Below, in pieces: positions 5,861 to 52,879 of a stretch of DNA of 64,000 nt. The first letter of the stretch is position 1, and the number at the start of each line of letters is the position of its first letter. Both the position numbers and the translations under genes were made by a program. Source of the DNA: Chaetoderma sp. LZ-2023a (lineage: Eukaryota > Mollusca > Caudofoveata > Chaetodermatida > Chaetodermatidae); contig CM067369.1 in the NCBI GenBank assembly GCA_034401795.1, forward strand, positions 184,461,881 through 184,525,880, given 5' to 3'. The notes below the pieces were generated by a model. It searched no databases. It was not told the origin of the DNA and worked only from the letters and a program-made list of their open reading frames with translations.

Positions 5861-6528
5861 TTAAAAGTGAGATTCTGCTAATTCACGGTTCACGCCGTTT
5901 ATCGAAAGTAAATTTGACATCTGTTTCAAGAATCAATCGATCATAATTTGTCAGATATAACGGCAAGAATTTTATAGCGACGCTTATCTACAGTAAAACG
6001 TACACAGGACGCCATTTGCGGGTTCCTCTTCTTTGACAACTATCAACAGCAAAATTTGTTGCGAAATAATCGATAATTGTTCTACAATTTTTAGTGCCAT
6101 TGCATCTGGTGTCTCTCTCCTCATTCCTCTCGTGCAACATTTTGTGATTTTTTAGTAGATGATTTTCTTGTCGACCTGGTATTCTTCGTCTGAGAAAGGA
6201 CGAATGGTTGTTGATCAATTTCTCTAGGGGTCGATTATTGTCTTGTCGACCTGGGGCCGTGTTCGCGGAGGGGTCGTGACTTGCGCCTGGTATAGCTCTG
6301 CCTTGGAGTCATTATGATGTCATAATAGAATATGACGTCATACTATACAACGTGGTTGTGCCGGGTGTGGGTTGCGACCCGTTCGTGAACACGCCCCTGG
6401 TCTCACTCATCGTTCCTCTCTTGCTGTCTTGGAGATTATTGATAAATGGGTAACGAATAGAAACGTGGGACGAAATTTCTCTATGAAATATTGTTGTAAA
6501 TATATTCTAATTTAATCTTGTGTACTAT
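5861..6528. other. Intron sequence, nothing recognised
   Basis: Part of the 6.4-kb intron of the RIM/Fife-like gene. A few CRE-like GACGTCA boxes near 6330 may be a MITE relic. No coding signal. Confidence 0.5.
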
Positions 6529-6632
6529 TAGTGGGGCGGATAACCAAAAGTATCTTGCAAATGGTGATACAAGCATGAAATTTGGTATGGTTAATATACA
6601 CGTCACTCTTCAGATCTACCCGATTGCCTATT
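6529..6632 (+). repeat. Left terminal inverted repeat of the 4-kb element
   Basis: Pairs with 10437-10549 in inverted orientation. The best block is AATGGTGATACAAGCATGAA and the six bases after it. The outermost bases are TAGTGGGGC. Confidence 0.8.
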
Positions 6633-7683
6633 TGAAAATTCAAAATGGCGGCCATTTTCCAAGATGATCGCCAAATTCACATATAAAACACATTATATAC
6701 ATATAAATGGTTCGGTTTGATAGATTTAAGTGATCCTAATGTTGATTTATGTTTTCAAACATGATTAAACTGATTTTACCAGTTTTAGCACACGCAGGTA
6801 CACCATTTTCCATATTAACCTTCTCTTGAGAACATCCGGCATTGTTACACGACTTGTCCATGTTGTTTGTCGTGCTTAACACCAATTCCTAATGCATGGG
6901 GTGTAGTGGTGTTGTAGTAGAAGCAGTACCTTTGTAGCAGCAGTCAGCTGCATTCTTTGGATGGACTCTGGCACTGATCCTCCTTGCTCATCCAGATCTC
7001 ACCTATGGCTCCCAGTAGTTGTCAGTGCATGACAATGGCCATACCCTGGTAAACTGTGTTGGCTCGTGGGCTAAACTAGGTGATGGTAGCGCATATAGTT
7101 TCTCTGTATGTGAGTATGGTGACACCAGATTTTCAATTGTATAAAGTGGACAATATTCAATGCCTGAACAGACTCAAGATGAAAAGACAATATCATTAAA
7201 GGTGGGAATGTCGGTGCATTACCAGGGCATACTGGTGACATCATTGCTGTAGAACTCAGCATAGGGCTCCGTGTCAACTAAACAGTGTTCAACAAATAGC
7301 GCGAGATAACTGCAAGTACTTAGTGTCCCAAATGCTACCTAACCAGCCCCACATAGGTTTGGAAACCGTACCTGAATTGACAGGATGTGCCAGCGTGGGA
7401 GAGCTGAGCCAAGGGTAATAGCGCTTTAGCTATCTAATTGGTGCACATATCGCGCAGGACTTAAATGACACTGGATGAAAGATCGGGATAGGTGTAGAGT
7501 AAATTTATGCACGAACCTAGTTGTACCCCATACACAAAATTGCACATGCTACATAGTGGTAAAATGATAACCTATTGATAAAATGATAAATGATAAAAAG
7601 GATAAACCCTCGATAAAAAGAAAAACAAGGATAAACATACAAAGGGAACCATTTAAAGGATACACCATCAGCTCGAAATTACA

Positions 7684-10450
7684 ATGGCCATGGAGGCCAA
7701 ATTAAAAAGACAAACAAATTGGACTAAGTGCTGTCTTTGTCAAGAGGACAAGAAAGACGATCTTGAGTCAACATATAAAACACCATGCCGAAAAAGGACA
7801 AGACGAGTATCCCAAATTAGCAAAGAATATCCCTCGGTTCCGTGCATTGAATGCACTCCTGCTCAAGCTTGACACCGCAAGACTAGATAAAGATGCTGGG
7901 ATAGAGGAAACCTTGAGAAAAAATAATGCACACTATCATGACAGTTGCAGCTGAGATAATAAACGAATATACAAAGAACCTCGGTGATAGACGAATTCTT
8001 GCTAAACTAAGTGTTGGGGATGTTGTGCCACAAGAAATGAAGTATCACCCTATCTGCCTAGCAGCACTATACAACCGAGAACGAGCGCATCTAAATGTAC
8101 AAAAGTGTGAAACTAGTACGGAAAAGTTTGACAGAATGGAAGCATATCCAATTGCCTTTTCTGAGCGAGTAACTTACATTATGGAAACTAATATTGCCAG
8201 TGAAGGTACAGAACCAGCTATGCTTAGGCTCGCAGATTTAGTCTCATTATACAATCAGCGACTTGAGCAGCTTAGAGTTGAATCACCAGATGCACATTCC
8301 ACTAGGCTAAAGGAACAATAGGTTTCACACATGCCTCAGCTAGAACCAAGGACGAGATATTCTCCTAGCCTTCAAGAACGATGTAGGCTCCATCTTGGCA
8401 CAAGCATGTAAGTAGACGGAAGCCATTCACTTAGCCACAGCTGCTGAAATGATACGGCAGGAGATGCTGAGCCACAAATTAACATTCAACAACACAAAGC
8501 TGTTCCACTATCACTTCTCCAATTCGTATGCATGATTGAACATGGTCACAGATTCAACATTATGCATCCAAATTTGATTTTGTTATGGCACGGTTATTGC
8601 AGTATAACTGCTTCGGTGGGTATAAGAATTGATAAAAAAGACAGATCAAGTATCGTGAGACTACATTCACCGTTTAACGGGCATGTCAATATTTGCCAAA
8701 ACCAGGAATAGGAAGCTTATTGACATGCTCCATGGACGTGGGCTCAGCATTTCGTATGACAGAGTTCTTGATATTTCCGATTTTACTAGGGGAAGCTGTT
8801 GTAGCCCAATATGTGGAAGATGATGTCATCTGCCCACCAGCCTCGAGAAAGCAGTTGCTTACTTCTGCCCTAGATAACATCAACCACAACCTTACTGCAA
8901 CCACAGAACACATATATTTCCATGGCCCAGGTTTCCAGCACCTAAACCTAGGGCATACTAGCGAGAAAAGTAAACCACTCAAACTATGCACTGGAGTTAT
9001 GTTGTTGAAGAAGGTTACTGAGCTGCCTGAATCATTCACCAATGTTCACCCAGCATACATCACCAAGAATCACAATCCCCTACCGATGCCAAGTCAGTCA
9101 TTACCAGCACCGGAATCAATCAAATCACACCTGACGGAAGAGTATGCCTGGTTAGAGGAAGTTCACCTCACTGAAGATATGGCTGATACTATCAGTGTAA
9201 CATGGACACCCTACCATGCAATACAGAAGAGGCGTCATCAATTTGAAGTGAGCATTTCGCCATTAATTCCACTGATTCGAGATCCAGCTTACTATGTTGC
9301 AACAATCAAACATGTCATGACGAAGAGACACACTCGCTTTCCTGAACCCGGGACAAATACCAGTGGTAGTTGTTGACTAGCCACTCTATGCACTTGGCTA
9401 GAAAATCCAATGGTAATGGCCTGAGTATGGGAAAGACAAGTTCGTGATCATTTTTGGCCGACTTCATATTGAGATGGTTGCATTGAAGTCAGTAGGAACA
9501 CTACTATGCGATAGTGGCTGGCTAAGCTCTCTTGTTGAGTCAGGAGTGGCCTCATCCGGTACGGCTGAGTCTTTCCTCTCAGCATGCATTGCCATTAGGA
9601 CACGACAAGCATACCAGGGTGTGCAGCATGCAGTCTGTACAAACTGATGAAGGCAGCATACTAAGACTACTGCTCTGATGTATCTGAGAAATCAGCTCTG
9701 AGACATGGAGACTGGTGTGAGCAACAGCGATACGAGAGCCAACAATTCAAGTTCTGGAACCTTCTCCTGGACATGGAGTTAACCGTATTCACTCTGATCC
9801 GGTCATTCAGAGAAGGGAACTTTGAATTGTATCGTGAGGCGCTCTCTGAACTGATTCCATACTTCTTCGAGTTTCACAGAGGGCACTTTGCTGTGCACAA
9901 ATCCGTGAAAGGGTTCTCGGCAATGGCCATTGACCAAGTGCATGAACAAAATAATGCAGTTACCAAAGGTGATGGTGGAGCAATTGGTTTTAGAGAGGAC
10001 CCAATAACACCTAGGCAATGGATGGTGGTATGTCCTGAAGTGAGTCGTCTATTTGATGGCTATGACATAGTGTTAGAAACAAAAGGTGTGAGAATCACGA
10101 GTAGGCATCATGAGCAGTCGCCATATTGTCAAAGAATTTTCTCTCAGTAAGTGCAAAAGCTTTTGACTGTTTTACAGGAGATGGGGGATCCTGTCCAGGA
10201 AGAGACAGCCGAACTGCTGCTGTTGAATACAAAAGATATTGCCGATCACGCTCTTGCAGCAATGATGGGCACCCACCAGCAGAGAGGCAAAGAGCAGCTC
10301 AAGTCATTCATCAAAGATCTAGAGAGTGGCGATAAATGCTCATTCTACCAGCCAATCAAGAAAAACAAGGTGACTTTCTTCAAACATGGACAAGTCGTCA
10401 GTAGTTCCAATGAGACGGTGTTGAAAGATGACCAATGGCCAATCGGGTAG
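7684..10450 (+). pseudogene. Broken gene of a widespread uncharacterised metazoan family
   Basis: Coding similarity runs through at least six frame-shifted blocks: 7684-7872 (start ATGGCCATGGAGG; product includes TNWTKCCLCQED), 7926-8321 (KYHPICLAALYNRERAH), about 8350-8650 (GRDILLAFKNDVGSILAQAC and VPLSLLQFVCMIEHG), 8693-9376 (GEAVVAQYVEDDVICPP and ISVTWTPYHAIQKRR), 9444-9647 (IIFGRLHIEMVALKSVGTLL and ASSGTAESFLSA) and 9773-10450 (MELTVFTLIRSFREGNFELY and FSAMAIDQVHEQNNAV). From memory, this order of motifs matches a family of roughly 1,000-residue hypothetical proteins, frequent in cnidarians and molluscs and sometimes labelled tesmin/TSO1-like CXC. The normal C-terminal half is missing after VLKDD. 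A further in-frame loss lies between ELIPYFFEF and HRGHFAVHKS. No function is known to me. Confidence 0.75.
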
Positions 10451-10549
10451 ATTTGAAAATTGACCTGTATAGATTAATCATGCCAAATTTCATGCTTGTA
10501 TCACCATTAGCATGATTCCGCTGAAAAACGCCTCTTATCTGCCCCACTA
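10437..10549 (-). repeat. Right terminal inverted repeat of the 4-kb element
   Basis: Inverted match to 6529-6632. It begins directly after the residual coding sequence, and the last codons (DQWPIG and stop) already lie in or at the edge of the repeat. That places the internal deletion junction near 10430. Confidence 0.8.
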
Positions 10550-10990
10550 TATAAGGTATCCGTAATGGCCGATTGTGAATAAATTATCTTATTAGGTCAA
10601 ATGCTAAAAGACAACCTTCAGTAGAGCTATCATTTTCCTAAGATGAGCGTCGCTGAATCACAGTATGGACTCATAAGCGGACAAACACTGAAAGTAATTC
10701 CAAAGGTAGAAGGTTGCTCAATTTTTTTCATTCCTGCAAACGACGGCCGAGCGTCTTGTATCTGGCAGTCTTGGAGCTAGCTCAAACTTGTGCAAGGAAT
10801 CTTTAAAATGTCTAACTCGAAAAACGTGAAATATCAAAATTAATCATCAAAACTTCTCAAGATAAAAAGCTCAAAACAGAAGGATACTGACAAGTTATTG
10901 TGTCTTTTAAACTGACAGACCAGACACGATAGAGTATTTAAGATATAAAGGATATATAATACTGTTGAAGATTTAGAAACTAATTTAATT
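10550..10990. other. Intron sequence, nothing recognised
   Basis: Short AT-rich stretch between the 4-kb element and a MITE. No coding signal. Confidence 0.5.
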
Positions 10991-27497: not shown

Positions 27498-28059
27498 GGC
27501 TCCCTAATGCTCGGTTCGAGTATTGGTGCTTTTTTACATCGCACCTTCCGTACGAAAATGGGAGCAATACGAACAACAAGGATCGGGGATCCACCATTTC
27601 AGTAGGCATATAGCTACCAAGAGAAAAGTTAGCAATGATCAATACTTCCGAGAGATTAGACCAGATTCAACTTATACTGTGTTCTTCTTTAAAAACTCGG
27701 ACGGACCGTCAGTTGTAGATCCCCAACCGTACCATGCGGTTTTTGTTTAAATGAAACCATGCAACCAAGCTGCTGTGTCAAAGGGTAAATAGTCATTCAA
27801 ATTCCGTCCATCCTGCTATCTCATACAAAACCATTTTGTGCGCGATTGAAACGAAATTTCCCCTGCTACAAGTGCTAGGTCTCAAAGTAGATCTAAGATC
27901 TCTGATCTTGGGTCGGGCGCAGAGATGTAACACTTTATCTGGGTACCAAGCCAGGTATTTGGGGCGAGTTGCCAACCATAGCACTAAACAACTCATCTTT
28001 CATGACAGTTAATATTATGACATCTAGTTAATATTTTGAATATCCGTCATGGTACTCGC
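27498..28059. other. No gene recognised; 5' flank of the LINE
   Basis: Unique-looking sequence up to the LINE. The exact 5' end of the LINE cannot be set from one copy. Confidence 0.4.
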
Positions 28060-28079
28060 CGTGTGAGTTCACGCCAGGC

Positions 28080-28905
28080 ATGTGCAGCACCGGGCCCCCA
28101 GCCTCGAAGGGCTCCACCCAAGCTACTGGTGGTGAAGTTCGTAGACCTTGGAGAAAAAGGAAGAAGGTTGTCCAACCTAAAGTACAAGTAAGCAAACCGC
28201 TGACTATAATGCAATGGAATGTTGAAGGAGTTTCTAACAAGAAAATGGAGCTTAGCCAAATTCTCAAGGAGAAAGGCGTAGATGTCGCGTGTATCCAAGA
28301 AACTCATCTAAATGCCAACAGAAGATTCTGTATAAGAGGATTTCAGTGCTTCAGATCTGACAGGAATGGAAGACATAAAGGAGGAGTCATAACCCTGGTC
28401 CGGAATAACCTAAACGCCATTGAAGTTCAGAGAGACATGGACGGACCTGAAATTCTCACAATCAAGATAATTCCAGAGAAACGTCCTATCACTTTTGTCA
28501 ACTATTACTGCCCTAATAATCAACCACTGAATCTCAGGAAAATCCCAGTTCACCCAGATTCAATTATCGTTGCTGGTGACCTCAAAAGTCATTCTCAGCT
28601 ATGGGGCTATCATTCTACTGATAGGAGGGATGAGGACATTGAAATCAGCAGAAACTGATTCTCTTGAATAAGGCAGATGACCTCCACCCCCTACATTCTA
28701 CTCTAGACGATGGCATACCTCAAGTTCTCCTGATCTAGCATTTTCGACAGAAAATCTACATCAAGAATCGTTGCGTATTGTTGGGGAACAGCTTGGAGGC
28801 AGTGATCACAGCCCTGTTTTCATTACCATTAACATGGATGTTGAAATTGACCGGAATCAGACTCCTCGATGGAACTATAAAAAGCAGACGAGGACAGATA
28901 TCAGA
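28080..28905 (+). pseudogene. LINE endonuclease domain, frameshifted
   Basis: The first open block (28080-28658) gives LTIMQWNVEGVSNKKMELSQ, VDVACIQETHL, GGVITLVRNN and SIIVAGDLKSHSQLWG. These are the N (QWNVEG), E (QETHL) and catalytic D (GDLKSHS) motifs of AP-type LINE endonucleases; GDLKSH replaces the usual GDFNAH. A shifted block (28720-28905) gives SSPDLAFSTENLHQES and GEQLGGSDHSPVFI, the last with the terminal SDH motif. A frameshift lies near 28640-28720 and a stop near 28924. Confidence 0.85.
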
Positions 28906-28919
28906 AAGAGGGTGACAGA

Positions 28920-30620
28920 TTGGTAAAAGACATTGATGTCAAAAACCAAAATATCAATAAAGTTGTTAAAGAGCCTAACTATACTTTACCCTCTGTTGCT
29001 GGCAAATACATTCCTATGGGCTCCAGGAAAAATCACAGCCCTTACTGGAATACGTCTCTGCAAAAGTTACACGAAGAAATCTCCAACGCAAGGGAAATTG
29101 CAGAGAATATCCCAACAGAAGCCAATCATGTGAAACTCCAACAATCCAAGGCAAAGTATCTGAAAGCCAAAATCAGAGCCACCAGAGAATCGTGGCGAGA
29201 AAAACGTCTAGCTTAAATCTTGAAAAAGATACGAACAAACTCTGAAGTCTTGTGAAGCAGCTTAACGATGAAAACGCCACCGTACCGAACAAAACTCTTG
29301 AAGAGGATTGTGAAATTAAAACAGGAGAGGCTGCTGCTGAACACTTTGCTTGTATGTTTCAGAAAATAAGCAATCTAGATGTGCCAGTGAGTTGTAAAAA
29401 AGCTGCAATGAAGTCTGCAAAGTGGAATGGAGACACACAAATACATGCCGCGGGAATGGACGAGATTCTGATAATCAGCGAGTTGGAGAAAAGCTTGAAA
29501 GTTCTGAAACACAGGAAGTATCCTGGACCAGATGGAATAACCAATGAGATGTTGAGGAATCTGGGTACTATTGGAAAGCACAAGCTTTTGGAGATTTTCA
29601 ATCACAGTTGGTACACAGGAGAAGTTCCCCAGTCTTGGAGAGAGGCCAACATGATCCCTGTACGGAAAAAAGACAAGAATAAATCCAAAGCGGCAAGTTA
29701 TCGACATATCAGTCTGACTAGTTGCACTGTCAAAGCCATGGAAAGAATCATCAACCAGAGACTTCTTCGACATCTTGTAAGCAACAATCTCTTAGCGGAT
29801 GAACAAAATGGCTTCAGAAAGTGGAGATCTACTGAGGATCAAACAATGTATCTGACACAGTCTATTGAGGAGGCGTTCCAACAGAAAAAGCATACCATCA
29901 CTGTGTGGGTTGATCTGCAGAAGGCAGTTGATAAAGTATGGAAGCATGGACTCCTCCAAAAGCTCAGGACCAGTGATATGCCAGTATCGCCACAACCGAA
30001 AGGCATCAGTACAGCTGAATGGGACGAGCAGCAAGAAAGTCCTGCTACGACATAGTGTACCTCAGGGTGGTGTAGTCGCTCCCACCCTCTTCACAATATT
30101 CATCAATGACCTGGTGAAGAACCTTCCAATGGGAGGCAGAGCTGCATTGTAAGCTGACGATCTTGTGATGTGGAGCAGCGAGGAGTATGTGTCAACAGCC
30201 AATTACCGCATGCAACTCGCAATTAATCCCATCAATTCTTGGGTTACAAGATGGTTTGTCCAGATCAACAAAGAGAAGACAGTCACAACTCTATTCACAC
30301 TATCCACTAAAAAGGAACACAAGACAAGTCTGAAATTTGGTGACTCAGTTCTGCACTTTGAGGATGAAGTAACTTATTTTGGTCTGATATTTGACAAAAG
30401 ACTAACCTGGAAGGCGCAAATCAGAAAAGCTGAATGTATAGCCAAGCGAAGACTGGCAGTTATGCGGAAGCTCTCTGGAACAAAATGGGGAGCTAACATG
30501 AAAATTCTGAAACAAGTTTACTCTGGATCTGTCAGGCCAATCATCGAATACGGCTCATCATCATGGATGACAGCTGATACAAGCACGCTTCAGACATTGG
30601 ATAAGGTACAATATCAGGCT
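28920..30620 (+). pseudogene. LINE reverse transcriptase, frameshifted, stop in YADD
   Basis: Blocks 28920-29216, 29252-30055, 29990-30152 and from 30165 cover the RT. Visible motifs: KYPGPDGITNEMLRNLG, VPQSWREANMIPVRKKD, YRHISLTSCTVKAMERII, EQNGFRKWRSTEDQ, SVPQGGVVAPTLFTIFINDL and the catalytic ADDLVMW. The Tyr codon of YADD is TAA (30150-30152). Shifts lie near 29216-29252 and 30000-30050. After YADD the frame runs on as ITYFGLIFDKRLTWK-type thumb sequence (VTYFGLIFDKRLTWKAQI). Confidence 0.88.
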
Positions 30621-31511
30621 CTTCGTATCATAACAGGGTCTATGAAGACCATTCCAATAGCAGCAATGGAAGAACTTACCAATATCCAGCCACTCCAGCA
30701 GAGACGAGAAATCAAGCCCGAGATTCAATACGAGAAATTCAAATTGATGCCTCACCATTCCATGCATATGCTGACTCACCAAATGTCTAGAGGAAGGCTC
30801 AAAAGGAATAATTTCTTATTAACATCAAAGAAAATTGAAAGAAACAGAGATTCGGACATCTTCCCCAGATGTAGAAACATAACTGCTATCTCTGAGAGGG
30901 AACCGTGGAAAGCTTCTGAAATAGAAAACACAATTTCAATCTGGCCCTCGATTCCAGGGATTCAAAGCAAGGGAGATCAAGCAGAGGTGACAAACAAAGT
31001 TCTTGCATTGAGTCATATTGCAGACAGCTACCCTGAGGAAGAATGGATACGTGTTTATACAGATGGATCAGCTATCCAGGCTGTCAAGAATGGAGGGGCA
31101 GCTGCTCACATTCGGTTTCCATGTGGAGATATATCAGACTCGTGCTTGCCAACAGGGAAGCACTGTAGCAATTACACTGCAGAAATCCAGGCACTGATCT
31201 TAGCTAGCCAAATGCTGATACAACGAAAAACCAGAAATGAAAATATTGTCTTCCTGACAGACTCCCTCTCAGCGCTCCAGGCGCTGGAGAGTGGAAAGGA
31301 AAGTACAGATTTAATTCATGAAAATCTTACGCAACTGGCTAAGGAGAACAATGTCAACTTACAGTGGATCCCCTCACATTGTTGCATATTAGGAAATGAC
31401 AAAGCTGATCAACTGGCTAAGGAAGGGTCAAATAAAGAACAATTCAACCATGAAGCTGACTTTGAAGAACTGAAGCATATCATTAAAGCCACAAGAACCA
31501 CCAGCAGGTAG
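30165..31511 (+). pseudogene. LINE RT thumb and RNase H
   Basis: The longest open block of the element (448 codons). RT tail: VTYFGLIFDKRLTWKAQIRK and QVYSGSVRPIIEYGSSSW. RNase H: IRVYTDGSAIQAVKNGGAAA (first Asp), NYTAEIQALILA (Glu), VFLTDSLSALQALESG (second Asp) and LQWIPSHCCILGNDKADQLA (His and last Asp). All catalytic residues are present. It ends at TAG, beyond which C-terminal LINE sequence continues in another frame (31566-31800: LRTGHNRLNAHLHRLKI). Confidence 0.88.
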
Positions 31512-43950: not shown

Positions 43951-46900
43951 TAAGGCGTGTTCTCGCTCGAGAGTTAAACAGGAATAACGCCATACTGAAG
44001 TATGGCGGTATTCCTTATTAAGGCCGTGTTCTCGCGGGAGAGTTAAACAGGAATAACGCCATACTGAAGTATGGCGTTATTCCTTATTAAGGCCGTGTTC
44101 TCGCGGGAGAGTTAAACAGGAATAACGCCATACTGAAGTATGGCGGTATTCCTTATTAAGGCCGTGTTCTCGCTCGAGAGTTAAACAGGAATAACGCCAT
44201 ACTGAAGTATGGCGGTATTCCTTATTAAGGCCGTGTTCTCGCGGGAGAGTTAAACAGGAATAACGCCATACTGAAGTATGGCGTTATTCCTTATTAAGGC
44301 CGTGTTCTCGCTCGAGAGTTAAACAGGAATAACGCCATACTGAAGTATGGCGGTATTCCTTATTAAGGCCGTGTTCTCGCGGGAGAGTTAAACAGGAATA
44401 ACGCCATACTGAAGTATGGCGGTATTCCTTATTAAGGCCGTGTTCTCGCGGGAGAGTTAAACAGGAATAACGCCATACTGAAGTATGGCGGTATTCCTTA
44501 TTAAGGCCGTGTTCTCGCGGGAGAGTTAAACAGGAATAACGCCATACTGAAGTATGGCGGTATTCCTTATTAAGGCCGTGTTCTCGCTCGAGAGTTAAAC
44601 AGGAATAACGCCATACTGAAGTATGGCGGTATTCCTTATTAAGGCCGTGTTCTCGCGGGAGAGTTAAACAGGAATAACGCCATACTGAAGTATGGCGTTA
44701 TTCCTTATTAAGGCCGTGTTCTCGCTCGAGAGTTAAACAGGAATAACGCCATACTGAAGTATGGCGGTATTCCTTATTAAGGCCGTGTTCTCGCGGGAGA
44801 GTTAAACAGGAATAACGCCATACTGAAGTATGGCGTTATTCCTTATTAAGGCCGTGTTCTCGCGGGAGAGTTAAACAGGAATAACGCCATACTGAAGTAT
44901 GGCGTTATTCCTTATTAAGGCCGTGTTCTCGCTCGAGAGTTAAACAGGAATAACGCCATACTGAAGTATGGCGGTATTCCTTATTAAGGCCGTGTTCTCG
45001 CTCGAGAGTTAAACAGGAATAACGCCATACTGAAGTATGGCGGTATTCCTTATTAAGGCCGTGTTCTCGCTCGAGAGTTAAACAGGAATAACGCCATACT
45101 GAAGTATGGCGTTATTCCTTATTAAGGCCGTGTTCTCGCTCGAGAGTTAAACAGGAATAACGCCATACTGAAGTATGGCGGTATTCCTTATTAAGGCCGT
45201 GTTCTCGCTCGAGAGTTAAACAGGAATAACGCCATACTGAAGTATGGCGGTATTCCTTATTAAGGCCGTGTTCTCGCTCGAGAGTTAAACAGGAATAACG
45301 CCATACTGAAGTATGGCGGTATTCCTTATTAAGGCCGTGTTCTCGCGGGAGAGTTAAACAGGAATAACGCCATACTGAAGTATGGCGTTATTCCTTATTA
45401 AGGCCGTGTTCTCGCTCGAGAGTTAAACAGGAATAACGCCATACTGAAGTATGGCGGTATTCCTTATTAAGGCCGTGTTCTCGCTCGAGAGTTAAACAGG
45501 AATAACGCCATACTGAAGTATGGCGGTATTCCTTATTAAGGCCGTGTTCTCGCGGGAGAGTTAAACAGGAATAACGCCATACTGAAGTATGGCGGTATTC
45601 CTTATTAAGGCCGTGTTCTCGCGGGAGAGTTAAACAGGAATAACGCCATACTGAAGTATGGCGGTATTCCTTATTAAGGCCGTGTTCTCGCGGGAGAGTT
45701 AAACAGGAATAACGCCATACTGAAGTATGGCGTTATTCCTTATTAAGGCCGTGTTCTCGCTCGAGAGTTAAACAGGAATAACGCCATACTGAAGTATGGC
45801 GGTATTCCTTATTAAGGCCGTGTTCTCGCGGGAGAGTTAAACAGGAATAACGCCATACTGAAGTATGGCGTTATTCCTTATTAAGGCCGTGTTCTCGCGG
45901 GAGAGTTAAAAGGGAATAACGCCATACTGAAGTATGGCGGTATTCCTTATTAAGGCCGTGTTCTCGCTCGAGAGTTAAACAGGAATAACGCCATACTGAA
46001 GTATGGCGTTATTCCTTATTAAGGCCGTGTTCTCGCGGGAGAGTTAAACAGGAATAACGCCATACTGAAGTATGGCGGTATTCCTTATTAAGGCCGTGTT
46101 CTCGCGGGAGAGTTAAACAGGAATAACGCCATACTGAAGTATGGCGGTATTCCTTATTAAGGCCGTGTTCTCGCGGGAGAGTTAAACAGGAATAACGCCA
46201 TACTGAAGTATGGCGGTATTCCTTATTAAGGCCGTGTTCTCGCGGGAGAGTTAAACAGGAATAACGCCATACTGAAGTATGGCGGTATTCCTTATTAAGG
46301 CCGTGTTCTCGCGGGAGAGTTAAACAGGAATAACGCCATACTGAAGTATGGCGGTATTCCTTATTAAGGCCGTGTTCTCGCTCGAGAGTTAAACAGGAAT
46401 AACGCCATACTGAAGTATGGCGTTATTCCTTATTAAGGCCGTGTTCTCGCGGGAGAGTTAAACAGGAATAACGCCATACTGAAGTATGGCGGTATTCCTT
46501 ATTAAGGCCGTGTTCTCGCTCGAGAGTTAAACAGGAATAACGCCATACTGAAGTATGGCGGTATTCCTTATTAAGGCCGTGTTCTCGCTCGAGAGTTAAA
46601 CAGGAATAACGCCATACTGAAGTATGGCGTTATTCCTTATTAAGGCCGTGTTCTCGCGGGAGAGTTAAACAGGAATAACGCCATACTGAAGTATGGCGGT
46701 ATTCCTTATTAAGGCCGTGTTCTCGCTCGAGAGTTAAACAGGAATAACGCCATACTGAAGTATGGCGGTATTCCTTATTAAGGCCGTGTTCTCGCGGGAG
46801 AGTTAAACAGGAATAACGCCATACTGAAGTATGGCGTTATTCCTTATTAAGGCCGTGTTCTCGCGGGAGAGTTAAACAGGAATAACGCCATACTGAAGTA

Positions 46901-47548
46901 TGGCGGTATTCCTTATTAAGGCCGTGTTCTCGCGGGAGAGTTAAACAGGAATAACGCCATACTGAAGTATGGCGTTATTCCTTATTAAGGCCGTGTTCTC
47001 GCTCGAGAGTTAAACAGGAATAACGCCATACTGAAGTATGGCGGTATTCCTTATTAAGGCCGTGTTCTCGCTCGAGAGTTAAACAGGAATAACGCCATAC
47101 TGAAGTATGGCGGTATTCCTTATTAAGGCCGTGTTCTCGCTCGAGAGTTAAACAGGAATAACGCCATACTGAAGTATGGCGGTATTCCTTATTAAGGCCG
47201 TGTTCTCGCTCGAGAGTTAAACAGGAATAACGCCATACTGAAGTATGGCGGTATTCCTTATTAAGGCCGTGTTCTCGCTCGAGAGTTAAACAGGAATAAC
47301 GCCATACTGAAGTATGGCGGTATTCCTTATTAAGGCCGTGTTCTCGCTCGAGAGTTAAACAGGAATAACGCCATACTGAAGTATGGCGGTATTCCTTATT
47401 AAGGCCGTGTTCTCGCTCGAGAGTTAAACAGGAATAACGCCATACTGAAGTGTGGCGTTATTCATTATTAAGGCCGTGTTCTCCCGGGAGAGTTAAAAGG
47501 GAATAACGTCATACCTCAGCAGTGCGTTACGCCGGTTAAGTCTCTAGT
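43951..47548. repeat. 69-bp satellite, 51 units in perfect register plus a diverged last unit
   Basis: The landmark TCTCG recurs every 69 bp from 43961 to 47411 without a single indel, and once more at 47480 in a diverged unit. Each unit holds the hairpin AATAACGCCATAC-TGAA-GTATGGCGTTATT. Two sites vary: GCGGGAG or GCTCGAG (a CTCGAG palindrome), and GGCGTTATT (perfect hairpin) or GGCGGTATT (one mismatch). By my reading the combinations are 21 TC/G, 15 GG/G, 10 GG/T and 5 TC/T. There is no coding potential. The related MITE at 42248-42482 has the same 69-bp spacing. Confidence 0.95.

Positions 47549-50977: not shown

Positions 50978-52879
<1,902 letters not shown>

Follow-up and report, generated by a model that had tools for sequence, protein, structure and literature searches.

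The window, by which we mean the whole 64-kb stretch of DNA that was analysed, contains an element enclosed by inverted terminal repeats and flanked on both sides by the trinucleotide TAT (Table 1). Between the repeats lie the remains of a protein-coding gene, with frames disrupted by stops and frame changes.

Table 1. Coordinates in the window of the element, its terminal repeats, its coding remains and the target-site duplication (TSD).
Feature	Position	Strand	Remarks
Whole element, internally deleted and inactivated	6529..10549	+	4021 bp
TSD, left copy, TAT	6526..6528	.	Empty-site paralogues with a single TAT
TSD, right copy, TAT	10550..10552	.	Sequence and empty sites
Left terminal inverted repeat, starting TAGTGGGGCGGATAA	6529..6640	+	~110 bp matched in the window copy
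Right terminal inverted repeat	10434..10549	-	Inverted-repeat matching
Broken-frame remains of the N-terminal part, with Cys motif CCLCQED and what follows it	7657..8321	+	
Coding remains in broken frames; ALDNINHN holds the candidate first catalytic D	8448..9376	+	
Coding remains with FGRLHIEMVALK	9417..9647	+	
Coding remains in which MAIDQVHEQNN holds the candidate catalytic E; TAA stop at 10148-10150	9665..10450	+	
Deletion junction, ~1.6 kb gone between coding remains and right repeat	10431..10434	.	Comparison with L017

Terminal repeats and insertion site of the window copy

The inverted-repeat search of the window returned three pairs of arms: an outer pair of 15 nt (6529-6543 with 10535-10549, 93%), an inner pair of 50 nt (6552-6601 with 10467-10516, 88%) and a further inner pair of 38 nt (6595-6632 with 10434-10471, 84%). 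Both repeats have in common the perfect 26-bp block AATGGTGATACAAGCATGAAATTTGG. The left repeat is longer in other copies, 167-271 positions being alignable in five of them as against the ~110 bp matched in the window. Within a single copy, identity between the left and right repeats is 80.7-87.7% (six copies of the window family measured, the window copy among them), which indicates that this family is old. In the inner part of the repeats (for example at about 6640-6660 of the window and in the inner repeats of L029, a relative described below) we also noticed AARATGGCGGCC words, possibly promoter related, which resemble a YY1 site.

When the window copy was compared with L017, a relative of 5751 bp, the two were found, smaller gaps aside, to be collinear as far as 4033, beyond which the window copy has just the terminal repeat; thus about 1.6 kb is missing. 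The parts present in relatives and absent from the window copy are the putative nuclease domain, the CxC tail and the inner part of the right repeat.

The junctions of the element read CTAT-element-TATAAGG. Its flanks, at 6420-6528 and from 10553 onwards, belong to an abundant host repeat. A search with the joined flanks minus one TAT scored 40 matches of 348 candidates, two of which were the window's own flanks, while the remaining 38 (among the matches listed) all cross the junction, by 5-37 nt. Four of these empty paralogous sites were fetched and all four carry a single TAT across the junction, reading CTATAAGG or CTATAACG; as the window has TAT on both sides, this marks a real insertion that duplicated 3 bp. 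An earlier note, made from the sequence of the window, had described inverted repeats of about 100 bp with a perfect 26-bp block and a possible TAT duplication, a description that the arms and the four empty sites confirm.

Relatives of the element in the genome

Besides the window, the left repeat matches at least 39 places in the 2.44-Gb genome, at 84-91% identity (40 scored of 121 candidates, a few of the matches spanning just part of the query). The 20 best of the 39 were fetched, so that our sample leans to close relatives. The inverted right repeat was found at the opposite end in 14 of these loci and partially in a fifteenth (L012); in the other five it was not found within the fetched stretch. 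The protein family is carried by 19 of the 20 loci, all 14 two-ended ones among them, the matches being to the frames within 7657-10450; it was not found in L013. The window copy (4021 bp) aside, the two-ended elements measure 2271-5912 bp, eight having 5.1-5.9 kb and six 2.3-5.0 kb.

The broken gene between repeats that the earlier note had seen is therefore real. The note would have given up its reading had the repeats occurred genome-wide without any link to the gene, whereas the gene accompanies 19 of the 20 best repeat matches (of 39). The genome-wide matches, the inverted right ends and the empty sites show that the repeats of the window are not a chance pairing.

Flanks were also compared for a constant duplication. 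Counting the window copy, nine of 15 two-ended elements show an exact 3-bp duplication (AGT, TCT, TAA, CAA, AAA, TTA, TTT, TGA and TAT), against six matches in 210 mismatched flank pairs used as control. No duplication of 4 bp or more was seen in any of the 15, and a 2-bp match occurs in four, two of which match at 3 bp too. The exact duplication is lacking in six elements (L009, L010, L011, L018, L019 and L023). Of these, L010 has a damaged right end, and in L011 the alignment stopped before the actual right end was reached, where the flanks differ by eye all the same.

A protein search with one piece from the window gave at least 270 matched stretches genome-wide (150 scored of 4412 candidates), a figure in which one copy may yield two stretches. 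Remote matches, mostly of 38-50% identity, often have long frames, and four such relatives were fetched. L029 is an element of 5906 bp with a 1492-aa frame (P0001), flanked by TAC/TAC, whose repeats are identical at 354 of 374 positions and whose Cys-rich tail sits in another frame. L030 and L032 belong to the 18 listed places that have a frame of 813 aa. Both are elements of ~8.5 kb; they lie at different sites, share 99.3% identity across an alignment of 8,496 columns and have the TSDs TAT/TAT and ATA/ATA, respectively. From their frames a GT-AG intron of ~1.4 kb is predicted, and within it, at about 3088-3567 of L030 on the minus strand, there is a 160-aa frame that by eye resembles the final part of a reverse transcriptase from a retrotransposon. 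The 8 kb fetched for L031 revealed no terminal repeat.

Three of the four fetched long-frame relatives (L029, L030 and L032, representing two distant families) thus have inverted repeats starting with TAGT and 3-bp duplications, while the earlier note would have been contradicted by intact members that never have such flanks. The TAGT at the ends is shared by all three families, that of the window included, and the word ATGAAAYTTGGYA is found ~50 nt inside at five of the six ends of these divergent families, the left end of L030 departing from it. Both L030 and L032 have a run of CxC at the C-terminus, and so does L029 in a different frame. Elsewhere in the genome, then, the element has longer and better preserved relatives, some of which have moved recently; they have 5.5-8.5 kb and encode one protein of ~1,500 aa, apparently with an intron in one family. 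The protein family lies inside terminal inverted repeats, with a 3-bp duplication, in long-frame and in decayed copies, a placement which, as the earlier note had supposed, explains its copy number.

Protein layout and the nuclease-like region

The protein of ~1,500 aa begins with Cys motifs in its N-terminal part; next comes a central region in which D, D and E are conserved, and after it a FEN/XPG-like nuclease region and a CxC tail. In P0001 the Cys motifs are placed at 32, 101 and 150, followed by DNIDHN at 490, D671 in MDQPLYA, GGLHTE at 699 and DQAHEQ at 888, with the nuclease motifs running from 1129 to about 1360. Retention of the central residues was counted in 25 sequences (24 loci and the window, P0001 numbering): D490 is kept in 18 of the 18 copies that cover it, D493 in 14 of 17, D671 in 17 of 20 and E892 in 15 of 19. 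From this pattern we infer that D490/D493, D671 and E892 would form the catalytic set.

Pfam scans of eight window pieces, eight pieces of relatives and four long proteins gave nothing above the curated cut-off where one was shown, and detected no transposase domain in the pieces of the element; a single Pox_A11 match at 2.5e-4, obtained in the scan of 16 fragments, was taken as chance. Sequence searches of the PDB returned no matches or chance ones (such as gp41 at 0.005), and no relatives were found among the collections of viral contigs and genome contigs. The earlier note describes proteins with this motif order as numerous in cnidarian and molluscan genomes and usually labelled "hypothetical" or "CXC-domain".

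For the C-terminal region we built a profile from 20 long-frame loci plus L029-L031, dropping L053, L057 and L060 (matches shorter than 150 aa) and L048 and L050 (broken reading); 18 rows were left, of which hhalign used eight. Its local alignment to FEN/XPG scored 27.21, more than any of 200 shuffles of the columns, whose scores reached 27.08 at most and had a median of 14.84, with a P of 0.0082 but an hhalign probability of 4.8%. Smaller profiles gave P values of 0.054 and 0.016, and a control profile 0.42. The global mode of hhalign was discarded in favor of the local one, as its alignment to FEN/XPG was meaningless though none of 100 shuffles reached its score. A scan for extra FEN1 sequences gave one archaeal locus and none in viral contigs.

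The default alignment covers 39 columns and sets GCDTVSxFxGIGKKTA against GCDYCESIKGIGPKRA; a lengthened one pairs further motifs in order, VWDVY..SLK with VFDGKPPQMK, PCSHEEA with PCEAEA and TVDTDV with TEDMDA. The region thus resembles FEN1, XPG and EXO1 in its GCD...GIGKK segment and in the order of the further acidic motifs, although its first conserved D was not paired with the first D of FEN1, it is fused to the putative transposase, and it is too divergent for Pfam XPG_I, which had six matches in the genome, none of them near the listed places of the family and the best ones resembling host nucleases. Given the narrow margin over the shuffles, the low hhalign probability, the unpaired first D and the silence of XPG_I, we consider it likely, though not proven, that this is a FEN/XPG-like (PIN-like) nuclease.

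Assignment of the element, and other features of the window

Academ transposons possess a zinc finger and a nuclease that goes by the name of XPG, and AcademH is presumed to share their transposase core. According to one description, the TSDs of AcademX are of 3 or 4 bp and those of AcademH of 9 or 10, a difference linked there to the nuclease of one lineage and the helicase of the other (PMC10045372). A survey of bivalves reports 100 curated Academ elements, of 5565 bp on average, and a bivalve-specific amplification (PMC10294476), and Academ-1 is listed in a clam (PMC8905726) and in corals (PMC12005156).

Judged by these sources, our family resembles AcademX in its terminal inverted repeats, its 3-bp TSD, the combination of a candidate transposase region with a nuclease-like region, a length of ~5.6 kb and its Cys-rich motifs. 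The duplication length expected of AcademX was seen in nine of the 15 two-ended elements, in the three distant copies whose ends were found (3/3) and at the four empty sites (4/4), and the length of ~5.6 kb agrees with the 5.9 kb of L029, one family, with its predicted intron, reaching 8.5 kb. AcademH, by the same description (PMC10045372), differs by its TSDs of 9-10 bp and its helicase. Size, duplication length, nuclease-like region and the reports from bivalves and corals therefore speak for Academ, and the window probably carries an old, internally deleted and inactive copy of an Academ-type transposon, most likely of the AcademX lineage. Membership in Academ, judged by published descriptions, is likely, not proven. 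The earlier note had suggested a new or poorly known transposon group; that the group is new is probably wrong, since the anatomy of the element fits Academ, which is known though little studied.

Three other identities were weighed against this assignment. In one, which we regard as unlikely, a superfamily of TIR elements apart from Academ would have arrived independently at the fusion of a D/D/E-type transposase with an XPG-like nuclease, giving a protein of ~1,500 aa with a CxC tail and a subterminal ATGAAAYTTGGYA kept across divergent families. No part of the protein had a convincing match in Pfam or among solved structures, and Academ itself was compared through descriptions, both of which leave room for such a group; against it, the 3-bp TSD, the length of 5.5-5.9 kb, the nuclease-like region and the bivalve and coral reports all fit Academ as published. 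If true, a separate superfamily would explain a large set of unannotated invertebrate proteins. The long open frames that persist in some copies might instead suggest a host gene family, flanked by repeats by happenstance or captured by non-autonomous elements, but the family accompanies 19 of 20 repeat matches, distant families carry the gene in repeats of their own, nearly identical copies occupy separate sites and differ in their TSDs, and one piece has at least 270 matched stretches; the host-gene reading is already contradicted by these observations and we give it next to no credence.

EnSpm/CACTA and PIF/Harbinger elements both make 3-bp TSDs, in the former without a fixed sequence and with termini CACTA...TAGTG, in the latter at a fixed TWA-like target. 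Our family has 3-bp TSDs of no fixed sequence as well, and the termini of the window and of L030 are TAGTG...CACTA; this order is, however, reversed with respect to CACTA, with TAGTG at the 5' end, and L029 ends in GGACTA. The TSDs observed (AGT, TCT, TAA, CAA, AAA, TTA, TTT, TGA, TAT, TAC and ATA) are too varied for Harbinger. As the Pfam scans, moreover, detected no transposase domain in the pieces of the element, that of CACTA included, either identity appears very improbable. Kolobok, whose target is TTAA, disagrees with the varied 3-bp TSDs; the KDZ group (Kyakuja-Dileera-Zisupton), which has CxC motifs, disagrees in the 8-bp TSD of Zisupton, none of our 15 elements having 4 bp or more; and Crypton and other tyrosine recombinase elements, which are not known to form TIR-bounded insertions with a TSD, disagree with the presence of both here.

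For an Academ-type element, transposition may be pictured as follows. The protein would bind the terminal repeats, perhaps through the ATGAAAYTTGGYA word ~50 nt in; the D/D/E center would cut the ends and join them to target DNA with a 3-bp stagger; the nuclease, if its XPG-like fold is correct, might trim or open a DNA intermediate; and gap repair by the host would leave the 3-bp duplication. These results link a family of proteins without a Pfam name to a mobile element whose ends are defined, which allows its genes to be annotated as transposons or masked. The near-identical 8.5-kb copies at different sites make this genome suitable for testing why a transposase would carry an XPG-like nuclease.

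Other mobile sequences and repeats were observed in the window. On the plus strand, 51526-52554 is a 343-aa frame with the Tc1/mariner-type domains HTH_Tnp_Tc3_2 and DDE_3 and no internal stops, and 28032-31508 has three open frames that are pieces of a non-LTR retrotransposon, with endonuclease, reverse transcriptase and RNase H. A tandem array of a 69-bp unit (51.7 copies, 97% matches) occupies 43951-47514, and its unit resembles, by eye, the right flank of L014.
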